Of a stretch of DNA of 47,147 nt, positions 10,953 through 44,608 are shown piece by piece; the first letter of the stretch is position 1; each line of letters starts with the position of its first letter. This stretch comes from Cytophagales bacterium (lineage in GTDB: Bacteria > Bacteroidota > Bacteroidia > Cytophagales > Thermoflexibacteraceae): positions 1-47,147 of the forward strand of contig JAAFKA010000035.1 of the NCBI GenBank assembly GCA_013299115.1, written 5' to 3'. The position numbers and the translations under genes are program-made. The notes beneath the pieces are model-generated. The model was given only the letters and a program-made list of their open reading frames with translations, searched no databases and was not told where the DNA came from.

Positions 10953-10990
10953 AAACCTTACAAGGTTTTCAAAACCTTGTAAGGTTTTTT
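10953..10990 (+). terminator. Palindromic terminator-like hairpin
   Basis: Perfect 17-bp arms (10953-10969 and 10971-10987) around a single C, then a T-run. It lies between the third 54-aa gene and the toxin remnant. It could terminate transcripts from the left. Confidence 0.55.
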
Positions 10991-36536: not shown

Positions 36537-36579
36537 AAATTAGCTATCAGGTGGCTTTAAGCCACCTGATAGCTAATTT
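36537..36579. repeat. Perfect 21-bp-arm palindrome with one central base
   Basis: AAATTAGCTATCAGGTGGCTT, a single T, and its exact reverse complement. It lies between the cyclase and BI-1 genes, next to a second palindrome at 36601. It could be a terminator or a mobile palindromic unit. Confidence 0.7.
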
Positions 36580-41122: not shown

Positions 41123-41677
41123 ACTTTCTTTTTCGTCTTTTTCTTTTTCTCTTTTCACTTGTTGTATGCACTTGTACTGTTGCGTGGCTGCGGTATGTTT
41201 ATTTTTCCAACCCATTTTCTCCATCAGGTTTTCCATAGGCACACGATAGAAGAAAATAGCCTGCAAAATTTGCTTGCAATTATCCGTAATTCGAGTAAAC
41301 CAAGTTTGTACCTTTTCCTCTTTTGTCTTTTCAGGGGTAATTTCGTCTGCAAAACTTTCTCCTGTATTTTGATATTCCTCAAATTCCTCTACGGAAATTT
41401 GCCTGTTATTTCGCAGCCTTTTGAGCCAAGTGTTTTTTGCAATGGCATACAAATAGGTTTTCAACGAGGAGGTCAAAACAAAATTAGGTTGCCTAACTTT
41501 TTGTAGCAATACAATAATTGTTTCTTGAAAAATGTCTTGTGCATCTTCGTCATTGCCTTTATTTTGTGTGATATAAGCACGAACAGAAGGAAAATATAAC
41601 TTATATAAAGACTGAAAAGCAGCATTGCCTTCTGTTTTTAGTTGTTCGAGCAGCACTTGGTCGGGTGTGGTTTGCAT
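41096..41677 (-). CDS. ECF-type RNA polymerase sigma factor
   Basis: This 193-aa sigma-70 family protein shows region 2 at about 20-90 (FQSLYKLYFPSVRAYITQNK, DAQDIFQETIIVLLQKV, TYLYAIAKNTWLKRLR) and a region 4-like segment at about 130-175 (CKQILQAIFFYRVPMENLME, KMGWKN). The C-terminal tail EKDEKESKSDRDDIF is very charged, and its end is encoded by a palindrome, so the native end may have been replaced. No anti-sigma gene is adjacent; the TonB-like protein at 45531 has an anti-sigma-like N-terminus. Its own promoter (41698-41727) matches that of the downstream genes, implying autoregulation. Confidence 0.88.
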   Translation of the reverse strand: MQTTPDQVLLEQLKTEGNAAFQSLYKLYFPSVRAYITQNKGNDEDAQDIFQETIIVLLQKVRQPNFVLTSSLKTYLYAIAKNTWLKRLRNNRQISVEEFEEYQNTGESFADEITPEKTKEEKVQTWFTRITDNCKQILQAIFFYRVPMENLMEKMGWKNKHTAATQQYKCIQQVKREKEKDEKESKSDRDDIF

Positions 41678-41697
41678 AAAGATAAAGTGATGTTAAT

Positions 41698-41727
41698 ATT
41701 TATACCAATTTAAGAAAAATAACACCC
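41698..41727 (-). promoter_or_regulatory. ECF-type autoregulatory promoter of the sigma gene
   Basis: On the minus strand GGGTGTTA (41727-41720), 13-bp spacer, GGTATAAAT (41706-41698), about 21 bp before the sigma ATG. It is paired with the element at 40998-41027, exactly 700 bp away. Confidence 0.65.
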
Positions 41728-41822
41728 AAAGAATTACAAAATATTTAAAATAACTTCTATTCATTCAATATGAGTAACATTAAAAAAAAGAAAACAAGGA
41801 AACATAAATTTTTGTAATTTTG

Positions 41823-41891
41823 TTTTGTAGCTATGCTGTTCAAGATAACATCTTTTAAAAAGATGTTATCTTGAACAGCATAGCTACAAAA
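41823..41891. repeat. Perfect palindrome with 34-bp arms
   Basis: The arms 41823-41856 (TTTTGTAGCTATGCTGTTCA onward) and 41858-41891 are exact reverse complements around a single A. The central part GATAACATCTTTT/AAAAGATGTTATC is shared with the palindrome at 41072. It sits at the 5' edge of a headless reading frame (41849-42127). Confidence 0.85.
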
Positions 41892-42127
41892 CTACCCCAA
41901 ATCAGTTTTTTAAAGAAATTCACAACAAAAAAGTAAAAATTAGGAGTTCAAAGTATCCACCAGCTTTTGACATAGATGTTATAATTGACGACAGCGAAGG
42001 CGTAAAAATAGAGGGTGAAAGACATAATTTTAATGCTATTTGGCTACAACCAAACACCATGAACTGGGTGCAAGATTTAAAAGTGCAACTTTTAGAACTG
42101 TATAAGTTGAAAAATGAAACTACATAA
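41849..42127 (+). pseudogene. 5'-truncated unknown ORF interrupted by a palindrome
   Basis: After the palindrome a frame reads NQFFKEIHNKKVKIRSSKYP and FDIDVIIDDSEGVKIEGE, then HNFNAIWLQPNTMNWVQDLK to a stop at 42125-42127, overlapping the kinase start by 14 bp. There is no start codon before an internal ATG at 42059, and the frame is closed by TAA inside the palindrome. It has coding-like composition but no family I recognise; it looks like the C-terminal part of a gene cut by the palindrome. Confidence 0.4.
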
Positions 42128-43250
42128 AACTTCTTCGGTGAATTTCCTCCCCCTGTGGGCAGCGAGGGGCTTGCATCTCACTTTTTGGGTTGCTACCACT
42201 TGGCTATTTACCAATAGTTTTTCGGTGCAGATGCGACAACTGCTGTTGATAGACGGCGTACAAACAGTCAATATTATTCGCAACAATGGGCTGCTGTTTC
42301 AAGTTTTGGCTTGTGTGGCGGTTGGGGCAGTTGTTTTTTATCTAACAATTTGGTTGCTTTCAAAGCATAATTTATTTACACACTATTTATCTGACACCTC
42401 TGAGGTGTCAGATAAGTTTTTTGCACACCATTTATCGGATACCTCAGAGGTATCAGATAAATTTTCTATTATTTTATGGCTTGTCTTGATTTTTGGAATA
42501 GGTATTTTGTTAGCTTATGTGGCAACAGTGGTTGAGTTTGGCGAACCGCATCCGCCCTTGCCCTTGGCAGTGGCTTGGGGAATGGTTACGTTTTACTTTG
42601 CCATTGCCATTACATACAGCATTGCAAAATTGCTGTATCGCAATAACCAACGCCAGCAACAACTGATTCTCGACAAAAAACAAACCGAATTGACTTTGCT
42701 ACGCAACCAACTGCAACCACATTTTTTGTTCAATGCCCTGAATAACTTGTTGGCAATGGTGCAGCCCAACGAAAATCCTAAATTAGTTCATTCTTTTGAA
42801 AGGCTGTCGCAACTGTTGCGTTATGTGATTGAGGAAACGCAAGCCGAAAAAGTGAGTATTCGCAAAGAAATTGTGTTTTTAGAAAATTATATTGCCCTCC
42901 AAAAATTGCGGTTTACGGAGGAAGAAGTCCTTGTAAATTTGCAAATAGAAGGGCAATTTATAGACCAGCCAATAGAGGCAGGGCTGTATGTTGCCTTTGT
43001 GGAAAATGCTTTTAAATATGGCACAGAACCCGAACAAATCAGCCAGATTGCTATTTATTTTGATTTGACTAAGGAAAATCAAATCAATTTTACTATCAAA
43101 AACAAAATAATGATGCCCAATTTGACAGGCAATAAAACAGGAATTGCAAATACTCGCAAACGGTTGGAGTTGATTTATCCGAATAAATATGAACTGCAAA
43201 TTGAGCAAACAGAGGAGTTTGTTGTTGGTTTGACTATTCAAACGAAATGA
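42114..43250 (+). CDS. LytS/YehU-type sensor histidine kinase
   Basis: This 378-aa kinase has four TM helices (about 20-36, 62-82, 118-140, 153-174) and then the His_kinase domain with QLQPHFLFNALNNLL (phospho-acceptor H203) and a HATPase region (YVAFVENAFKYG, GIANTRKRLELIYPNKYEL). It partners with the LytTR regulator at 43922. The loop between TM2 and TM3 contains two translated palindromes, giving LSDTSEVSDKF twice. The input signal is unknown. Confidence 0.9.
   Translation: MKLHKTSSVNFLPLWAARGLHLTFWVATTWLFTNSFSVQMRQLLLIDGVQTVNIIRNNGLLFQVLACVAVGAVVFYLTIWLLSKHNLFTHYLSDTSEVSDKFFAHHLSDTSEVSDKFSIILWLVLIFGIGILLAYVATVVEFGEPHPPLPLAVAWGMVTFYFAIAITYSIAKLLYRNNQRQQQLILDKKQTELTLLRNQLQPHFLFNALNNLLAMVQPNENPKLVHSFERLSQLLRYVIEETQAEKVSIRKEIVFLENYIALQKLRFTEEEVLVNLQIEGQFIDQPIEAGLYVAFVENAFKYGTEPEQISQIAIYFDLTKENQINFTIKNKIMMPNLTGNKTGIANTRKRLELIYPNKYELQIEQTEEFVVGLTIQTK
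42387..42460 (+). repeat. Two translated palindromes in the kinase gene
   Basis: Palindromes of 29 bp at 42387-42415 (TTATCTGACACCTC arm) and 42432-42460 (TTATCGGATACCTC arm, one mismatch), spaced exactly 45 bp and in frame. Each encodes LSDTSEVSDK, with FFAHH between. They add about 30 residues to a loop between membrane helices. Confidence 0.85.
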
Positions 43251-43434
43251 AAATTTACAAATTCTTATTTCTTCACTGTTTTTTTATCAAATTTGGGTTG
43301 TTTTTTTGAGAGAAACAACCCTGTAAAAAGATATTCGTATTGGTAGTTGCGTTATTATTTTCAAAAGTAAAATAGTTTATTTTAACTATTAGGAATATTT
43401 GCAATCTCTAAATCCAAAACAAGAACCACCTTGT

Positions 43435-43899
43435 ATGCTTTTATTTATTACTTCATGGTATCGTCATCCTTGCTTACAACCCTATTTTGGTTTTAACTCT
43501 GAAAGAGTTGTCATGGCATTTATGGTTATTTTAATTCTTTACATCTTTAAAGACATCATTATCAGCTATTTTACTAAACATAAATATTTATTGCCATTTG
43601 TTTTTATATATGGCATTTTTGTTATCATAAAGCTATTAATGTTTACACAAAGTATGACAGATTGCCCTGCTATGCAGGCTATGTATGAACAAAAAACGTA
43701 TAAAATGGTACGAGGATGTATAAAAAATTATAAAATGGAAAAGCAAGGCAAATATAGTTATAGTAAACATTTTTCTGTAAATGAAATACAATTTGATTTT
43801 GATGCAAGTCTTGACTTCAATCATTTAGACAATGGTGATAGTGTACATATCAAATATTATGAAGGAACTGTTTTTGAGTTAGAATATATTTCAAAATAA
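43435..43899 (+). CDS. Membrane protein of unknown function between kinase and regulator
   Basis: This protein of about 154 aa has two TM helices (about 25-43 and 52-70: MVILILYIFKDIIISYF, FVFIYGIFVIIKLLMF) and a C-terminal soluble domain (SYSKHFSVNEIQFDFDASLD, GDSVHIKYYEGTVFELEYIS). It sits between the sensor kinase and the response regulator in the same direction, an unusual insertion into a two-gene unit. The start could also be the TTG at 43399. Family not recognised; composition is more AT-rich than its neighbours. Confidence 0.65.
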   Translation: MLLFITSWYRHPCLQPYFGFNSERVVMAFMVILILYIFKDIIISYFTKHKYLLPFVFIYGIFVIIKLLMFTQSMTDCPAMQAMYEQKTYKMVRGCIKNYKMEKQGKYSYSKHFSVNEIQFDFDASLDFNHLDNGDSVHIKYYEGTVFELEYISK

Positions 43900-43921
43900 A
43901 CAAATAACTAAGCCGTTGGAT

Positions 43922-44608
43922 ATGAAAGCAATTATTGTAGATGACGAACCCAAAGCCATTGACTTGTTGAAAAGTTATGTAGCCCATTTTGGTACAATAG
44001 AATTGGTGGCTACGTTTCGGAATGGGTTAAAAGCCTTTGAATACTTATCAAAAGAGCCTGTAGATTTGCTGTTTTTGGACATCAATATGCCCCATATTTC
44101 GGGTATTTCTTTGTCAAAAATGCTGCCCAAAACCACAAAAATCATTTTCACGACAGCCTACTCCGAGCATGCAGTAGAGAGTTATGAAGTGGAGGCAGTA
44201 GATTATTTGCTAAAACCAATCAGTTTAGACAGGTTTACGCAGGCAGTAAGTAAGGTACTGAGCAAAAAAGCTGCAAAACAAGAAGTTGTTGCAAATAATT
44301 CCACGACTTGGATTGCGGTAAAAAGTGGCTTTGAAACCTACCGAGTGGCAACCAACAAAATTATGTATTTGGAAAAAGATGGCAATTACATGACCTATTA
44401 CTGCGAAAACGAAAAAATAATTGGCAGAGAAACCATACAACAAGCCTTAGAAAAATTGCCACCAAATTTTGTCCAAACTCACAAATCTTTTATTGTCAAT
44501 TTAGACAAAGTTCGGCGTTATGACAGCAGCCTGATTTTTATTGACAGCCACCAAATTCCCATGAGTGAGTCTTTTTCGGCAGCAGTTTTTAAGGAGTTGG
44601 AGAAGTGA
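43922..44608 (+). CDS. LytTR-family response regulator
   Basis: This 228-aa protein has an N-terminal receiver domain (AIIVDDEPKAIDLL with the acidic pair; phospho-acceptor in LLFLDINMPHISG; TTAYSEHAVESYEVEAVDYL) and a C-terminal LytTR DNA-binding domain (ATNKIMYLEKDGNYMTYYCE, FVQTHKSFIVNLDKVRRYDS). It is the output of the kinase at 42114. Start MKAIIVDD; a TTG two codons earlier is possible. Confidence 0.93.
   Translation: MKAIIVDDEPKAIDLLKSYVAHFGTIELVATFRNGLKAFEYLSKEPVDLLFLDINMPHISGISLSKMLPKTTKIIFTTAYSEHAVESYEVEAVDYLLKPISLDRFTQAVSKVLSKKAAKQEVVANNSTTWIAVKSGFETYRVATNKIMYLEKDGNYMTYYCENEKIIGRETIQQALEKLPPNFVQTHKSFIVNLDKVRRYDSSLIFIDSHQIPMSESFSAAVFKELEK

Follow-up and report, generated by a model that had tools for sequence, protein, structure and literature searches.

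REPs are dispersed hairpins, the great majority of them extragenic, which occur as one family per transposase gene and flank that gene (PMC2817692; Quentin et al., 2018, PMC6006769). A genome can hold several such transposases (RAYTs), each tnpA-REP being paired with its own REP family, and enzymes of this type act on single-stranded hairpins (Quentin et al., 2018; Di Nocera et al., 2013, PMC3733652). TnpA-Y1 subclass 2.6 is mostly from Bacteroidetes and is flanked by atypical, weaker structures without GT[AG]G, and in subclass 2.4 the transposase gene itself contains in-frame REPs, as a rule between the HuH and Y motifs (Quentin et al., 2018). Intragenic REPs are described from several species, wholly within ORFs and often as dimers or groups (Di Nocera et al., 2013). 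Those with the GTAG tag, found mostly in O. terrae, are held to be moved by RAYTs; those with the CGTC tag have no known dedicated transposase in that account, and include intragenic repeats of R. conorii that are equated with RPE-4 and RPE-6. Rickettsia-type palindromic elements (RPEs), about 150 bp long, lie in frame in many unrelated genes (PMC10969869). PARCELs are also palindromic coding repeats, described as 25-residue tandem repeats of the DUF285 type in ORFs of unassigned function (PMC2996958).

We describe here two palindromes in the window, the 47,147-nt stretch of DNA that was analysed, from Cytophagales bacterium GCA_013299115.1 (contig JAAFKA010000035.1). In our reading, which we give a probability of about 0.86, they are REP elements of a RAYT system, and a RAYT gene on contig C28 of the same genome is their likely source. 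As REPs they are atypical, since they have no GT[AG]G foot and a large intragenic share. The features concerned are as follows.

42114-43250, + strand: host gene of the palindromes, a histidine kinase (PF06580) of 378 aa (Pfam His_kinase, E 9.3e-22)
42375-42464, + strand: two tandem 45-bp units that hold the palindromes, with 7 differences between the units
42387-42415, no strand assigned: palindrome copy 1, read as a REP; 13-bp stem and 3-nt loop, 13 of 13 pairs; encodes LSDTSEVSDK together with the next base
42432-42460, no strand assigned: palindrome copy 2, read as a REP; 12 of 13 pairs; also encodes LSDTSEVSDK
43916-44608, + strand: response regulator with a LytTR domain, 3' of the kinase gene

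The kinase, which we take to be of the LytS type, has His_kinase as its sole Pfam domain, and its reading frame stays open with the insert present; from its position, the LytTR response regulator is likely its partner. As the earlier note had claimed, the two 29-bp palindromes, 45 bp apart, lie in frame within this gene. The insert sits in a loop between two stretches judged hydrophobic by eye. At up to three mismatches, GAYACCTCWGAGGTRTC matches twice in the window, as against a mean of 0.07 and a maximum of 1 in shuffles, and the palindrome stretch, folded as single-stranded DNA, gives z = -10.1, with copies 1 and 2 pairing with each other. Because the 45-bp unit is repeated with 7 differences, the pair looks like a tandem duplication. 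Four of the differences fall in the palindromes, at positions 6, 9, 15, and 21. Positions 9 and 21 make up a single compensatory pair (C-G to T-A), the change at position 6 breaks a pair and position 15 is in the loop, so the claim that most differences are compensatory was an overstatement (two of four, forming one pair). All four are synonymous, and the window pair alone therefore does not show that pairing is preserved.

Searching 41500-43500 with the Rfam families gives 35 matches up to E 1, all under the gathering score and chiefly of miRNA type, which we read as chance. They fall mostly on a hairpin at 41822-41892, one of six perfect hairpins with stems of 33-38 bp and 3-nt loops (the others are at L123:1585-1655, L125:4991-5059, L134:842-920, L155:591-659, and L159:4349-4423). 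Three of the six have the inner core AGATGACATCT in common and two a near variant of it, and the outer arms differ from site to site yet are perfectly complementary, as if the flanking DNA had been inverted and duplicated.

The kinase palindromes are members of a family scattered over the host genome, which comprises 5.5 Mb in 74 contigs. With up to three mismatches allowed, the 29-bp pattern is found there at 102 sites and the reversed control at none; a shorter palindrome core, at up to two mismatches, has 103 sites as against 2 for its reversed control. From 74 palindromes we set aside 20 (14 of MITE type, the three near-identical repeats L137-L139, and three of other families), which leaves 54 stand-alone copies. 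Twenty-two of these are inside 12 ORFs, four are near the N-termini of four ORFs whose true starts may be further downstream, and 28 are elsewhere, including six around a RAYT gene. The in-gene share (22/54) refers to these 54 only, with MITE-borne copies excluded, and differs from the mostly extragenic location reported for REPs (PMC2817692). The count of in-gene copies is a minimum, because the covariance-model search scored 150 of 3549 candidates and part of the 102 sites was fetched. Three copies are directly 5' of likely start codons (L120:3006, L140:2977, and L147:2942) and are possibly 5'-UTR hairpins. In viral contigs, the exact palindrome pattern is not found.

The RAYT gene in question (L292:1164-1751 on contig C28) encodes 196 aa and matches NF047646 (REP_Tyr_transpos) with E 2.8e-12, below the curated cut-off; by eye, it has an HUH-like motif (PNHFHFL) and a Y-like motif (YIHQNP). 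Six copies of the kinase palindrome flank it, three upstream and three downstream, all within 190 bp of its ends. The same palindrome is absent at eight other RAYT loci scanned in the host genome and at six scanned RAYT or Y1 loci of relatives. A RAYT flanked by the same palindrome indicates that the kinase palindromes are REPs, and the arrangement is the one described for REPs and RAYTs elsewhere, in which each transposase gene is flanked by its own family of dispersed hairpins (PMC6006769; PMC2817692). The earlier interpretation, from which this gene was missing, is partly supported. The nearest PDB entry to the C28 protein is TnpA-REP 4er8 (E 0.004, a weak match), and PHROGs gives one weak, unnamed match for it. 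Both the C28 protein and the C16 RAYT fall under the Pfam cut-off for Y1_Tnp, and in NCBIfam seven RAYTs in one search and one in another are all under the cut-off. The IS200-type TnpA genes of the host genome (C35 and C20) were considered as a source and rejected; the hairpins listed for them do not include the kinase palindrome.

As in other genomes with several RAYTs (PMC6006769; PMC2817692), the other RAYTs have repeats of their own. A search with the C16 RAYT finds ten RAYT places in the host genome, of which one has internal stops and some are incomplete; the tenth is weak, and the palindrome scan covered the other nine. A hairpin scan assigns ACTTTCCAAGT to the C16 RAYT, CTATCGGGTGGCT to that of C11, and AAACCTTATAAGGTCT to that of C74, and reading the flanks of the C24 and C34 RAYTs reveals own repeats there too. 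The 29-bp family ACTTTCCAAGT has 52 sites in the host genome (reversed control 0) and crowds around, and in frame inside, the C16 RAYT (235 aa; RAYT match below the curated cut-off; no PHROGs match). Within that gene (L252:3686-4390), the repeat keeps the reading frame and separates the HUH-like motif from the Y-like one, as described for subclass 2.4 (PMC6006769). A ACTTTCCAAGT-type hairpin is also seen at L318:1708-1740, within a RAYT match from G031, which is of another family; the flanks of this match hold a different hairpin. In the window itself, two hairpins outside long ORFs, at 36537-36579 and 10953-10987, resemble the repeats that surround the C11 RAYT (TATCGGGTGGCT) and that of C74 (AAACCTTATAAGG).

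An alignment of the family uses 51 of the 54 stand-alone copies, three tandem copies identical to others being omitted. In the covariation test, changes on both sides of a pair occupy 29 cells as against 7.7 +/- 2.2 in shuffled alignments, a value reached by none of 500 shuffles, which ignore the relatedness of copies and so inflate such tests. Slid structures give only 1 to 6 such cells. Five measures of covariation were compared, and one of them, the count of further pair types, does not exceed the shuffles (204 of 500). At pair 6/24, A-T or T-A is found in 21 of 47 copies and C-G in 8. Within genes, many of the changes are synonymous as well. The earlier claim that the pairing itself is preserved gains support from the whole family and is not shown by the window pair taken alone. 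The flanks are also conserved: with one copy per locus (34 loci), their information content is 11.2 bits, a value that none of 200 controls at random places reaches (2.96 +/- 0.35; these controls were less optimised, with 3 starts instead of 20). They share an asymmetric consensus, approximately AAAAATAY-[29]-ATGGTRTTT when oriented, from which it follows that the unit is longer than 29 bp. Within 8 nt of the 5' foot, on either strand, neither GTAG nor GTGG occurs in any of the 54 copies, so the element is not a canonical REP; CCAC is found there in five. The CGTC tag is likewise absent from all 54. Tandem copies are common, and since the unit is nearly symmetric, the orientation of copies in pairs (REPIN/BIME) rests on the flanks.

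The 12 ORFs that bear in-gene copies, in which the palindromes lie in frame, answer the earlier call to look for such palindromes in other genes. They encode the window kinase, a PG_1098/THUMP-like protein, three SpoIIE-domain proteins, a propeller-type kinase, a Roc-COR (Roco) protein, an AAA helicase (L133), an NFACT protein (L134), a small methyltransferase, and two proteins of 290 and 620 aa without a Pfam family; Pfam domains are present in the other ten. From its motifs, the methyltransferase is presumably TrmN6-like. In eleven of the 12 genes, the palindrome is translated as LSDTxxVSDK or a close variant. The helicase gene has four perfect copies in the other frame, reading YPIPSRYRI four times, and the third frame of the palindrome contains a stop. 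These two modes of reading mean that the inserted unit is DNA, not peptide. Where an ORF has several copies, their spacings are multiples of three in ten cases out of ten (7 ORFs). Two loci mix REP families: the helicase gene (L133:517-4905) has four copies of one family and four of another, and the NFACT locus likewise combines two.

Comparison with empty sites covers two of the 12 genes, the kinase and the methyltransferase, and in both the palindromes are seen as insertions. They are absent from all 27 aligned kinase homologues (27 of 29 loci passed a length filter), none of which shares the loop sequence; these homologues are distant (those listed show no more than 41% identity), and the empty site is therefore clear for the family, not for the species. 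The methyltransferase matches in 49 of 59 genomes including its own; 29 of the 48 others had loci, and all 29 could be aligned. Its insert, about 20 residues before NPPF, is missing from every one of them, and the two nearest solved relatives among those listed also have a gap at that position.

Beyond the host, a covariance model applied to the 59 genomes finds the palindrome in G000, G001, G002, G003, and G009, all of one family, and weakly in G032; G003 has 79 matches with both strands counted. The exact pattern was sought in 84,980 species genomes, a set that may leave out the window's own record. The 22 stretches in which it occurs come from four MAGs, which are named Cytophagales or Bacteroidetes and are identified by flanking letters as G001, G002, G003, and G009. 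A non-census sample of 33 near-perfect copies at 32 of 34 loci of the relatives, with some places counted twice, has none in the interior of a long ORF; four are located where ORFs of 120 to 414 aa begin. RAYTs of the C28 type (at least 49% identity over most of the length) are found in G002, G003, G011, G014, G030, G032, and G047. None is found in the palindrome-bearing drafts G001 and G009 (96 and 98% complete), and the palindrome has no match in G011, G014, G030, or G047 despite their C28-type RAYT. The kinase palindrome is not at the flanks of those RAYTs of G002 and G003 that were scanned. These distributions do not fit a simple one-to-one pairing. The G030 RAYT, from another family, shares 51% identity with the C28 RAYT; its flanking hairpin, AGGTGTCCTACACCT-TTA-AGGTGTAGGACACCT, has the core ACACCT-NNN-AGGTGT in common with the kinase palindrome.

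Could the palindromes have been spread by another element altogether? A 106-bp element of the host genome looks like a MITE. It has about 40 matches (BLAST with one long copy; 40 of 102 candidates scored), 30 of which (L061-L090), when aligned, share the ends TAAGTAGTT...AACTACTTA, with a TIR and TA at the ends. About 40 further palindrome copies ride inside it. If only this MITE and its transposase spread the palindromes, the stand-alone copies would be decayed MITEs, and it is true that the MITE matches hold the palindrome, that relative G009 has a MITE-type flank, and that two of the 54 stand-alone copies (L136 and L147) have an exact MITE end within 75 bp. However, exact ends are found that close to none of the 22 in-gene copies and none of the four N-terminal ones, the two cases being among the 28 others. 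With one mismatch, ends accompany 7 of the 22 in-gene copies as against 129 of 2000 random places, but the seven come from just three of the 12 genes and four of them are one tandem array; for the window kinase copies, neither an exact MITE end nor one with a single mismatch lies within 75 bp. The stand-alone copies moreover have a flank consensus of their own, and six surround a RAYT. One of the aligned MITE matches (L084) lacks half of the palindrome. We consider it unlikely that the MITE alone is responsible, and more likely that the MITE picked up a REP. The two exact end motifs, at L136:3005 and L147:2942, are perhaps remnants of a second, related MITE.

Two further accounts fare worse. 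Selection of LSDTxxVSDK as a protein module, with the DNA symmetry incidental, would explain why all four changes in the window pair are synonymous and why a single frame serves 11 of the 12 genes. However, frame choice is limited by the stop in the third frame, one gene carries four perfect copies in another frame, and the 28 copies outside convincing genes are about as symmetric as those inside (13 of 28 perfect as against 12 of 22). The host proteins are unrelated, and the aligned relatives of two of them lack the insert; in the kinase and the methyltransferase, no orthologue was seen with a conserved peptide and scrambled codons. This account is very improbable. Gain of RPEs by transfer is hardly credible at all, although the earlier note was right about the likeness to these elements: the behaviour is the same, short palindromes being in frame in unrelated genes, here 12 ORFs, and intragenic R. 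conorii repeats have been equated with two RPEs. The CGTC tag is in none of the 54 copies, the exact pattern is confined to the four MAGs among 84,980 species genomes, and a local RAYT accounts for the palindromes. RPEs also differ in length, which is given as about 150 bp (PMC10969869).

With about 100 copies in the family and six of them placed around a transposase gene, the palindromes look like tiny mobile elements, and we infer that they move; polymorphic insertions were not seen. The C28 RAYT would recognise the hairpin in single-stranded DNA and would copy or move to new sites a unit that somewhat exceeds 29 bp. A gene would tolerate such an insertion only where it preserves the reading frame and places the hydrophilic decapeptide in a loop that can accommodate it, and the inserted copies may then expand in tandem in multiples of three. 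Compared with described REP/RAYT systems, the family differs in its missing GT[AG]G foot, its near-symmetric 13-3-13 hairpin, and its share in genes (PMC2817692). Subclass 2.6 is similar in being untagged and in Bacteroidetes, but its structures are called weaker (PMC6006769), whereas the stems of the kinase family are 13 bp and often perfect. The intragenic REPs of Di Nocera et al. (2013, PMC3733652) are also in ORFs and grouped, but are described with a GTAG or CGTC tag, and the kinase family has neither. Finally, PARCELs differ in repeat type (PMC2996958), the kinase having no DUF285.

Intragenic REPs, tag-less Bacteroidetes REPs, and in-gene GTAG REPs with RAYTs are all in print, so each ingredient is known, and what we describe is a new, unusually gene-dwelling REP family, not a new kind of element. 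As far as our searches went, the new aspects are the family, the host group, the high gene share, the in-frame tandem growth, and an untagged RPE-like element adjoining its likely mobiliser. We recognised no description of in-gene REPs of Cytophagales in the openly accessible literature, which is weak evidence of absence.

The broader proposal, that a RAYT-driven REP family has shifted its habitat from intergenic DNA into genes and that RPE-like palindromes and REPs are one phenomenon, is possible, but we hold it to be the less probable outcome. If true, an untagged symmetric unit that encodes a soluble decapeptide, with two of the three frames of either strand open, would live and expand in tandem in conserved enzymes, and RPE-like coding palindromes and REPs would be unified, with an identified transposase. 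In-gene CGTC palindromes, including some Rickettsia elements, have no known dedicated transposase in the account cited (PMC3733652). Here, one genome has an untagged, RPE-like in-gene family beside a probable transposase, together with parallel RAYT-repeat pairs as controls, which makes the entry of such elements into genes testable in vitro. The in-gene copies also provide a natural set of conserved enzymes that tolerate an insertion of ten residues.
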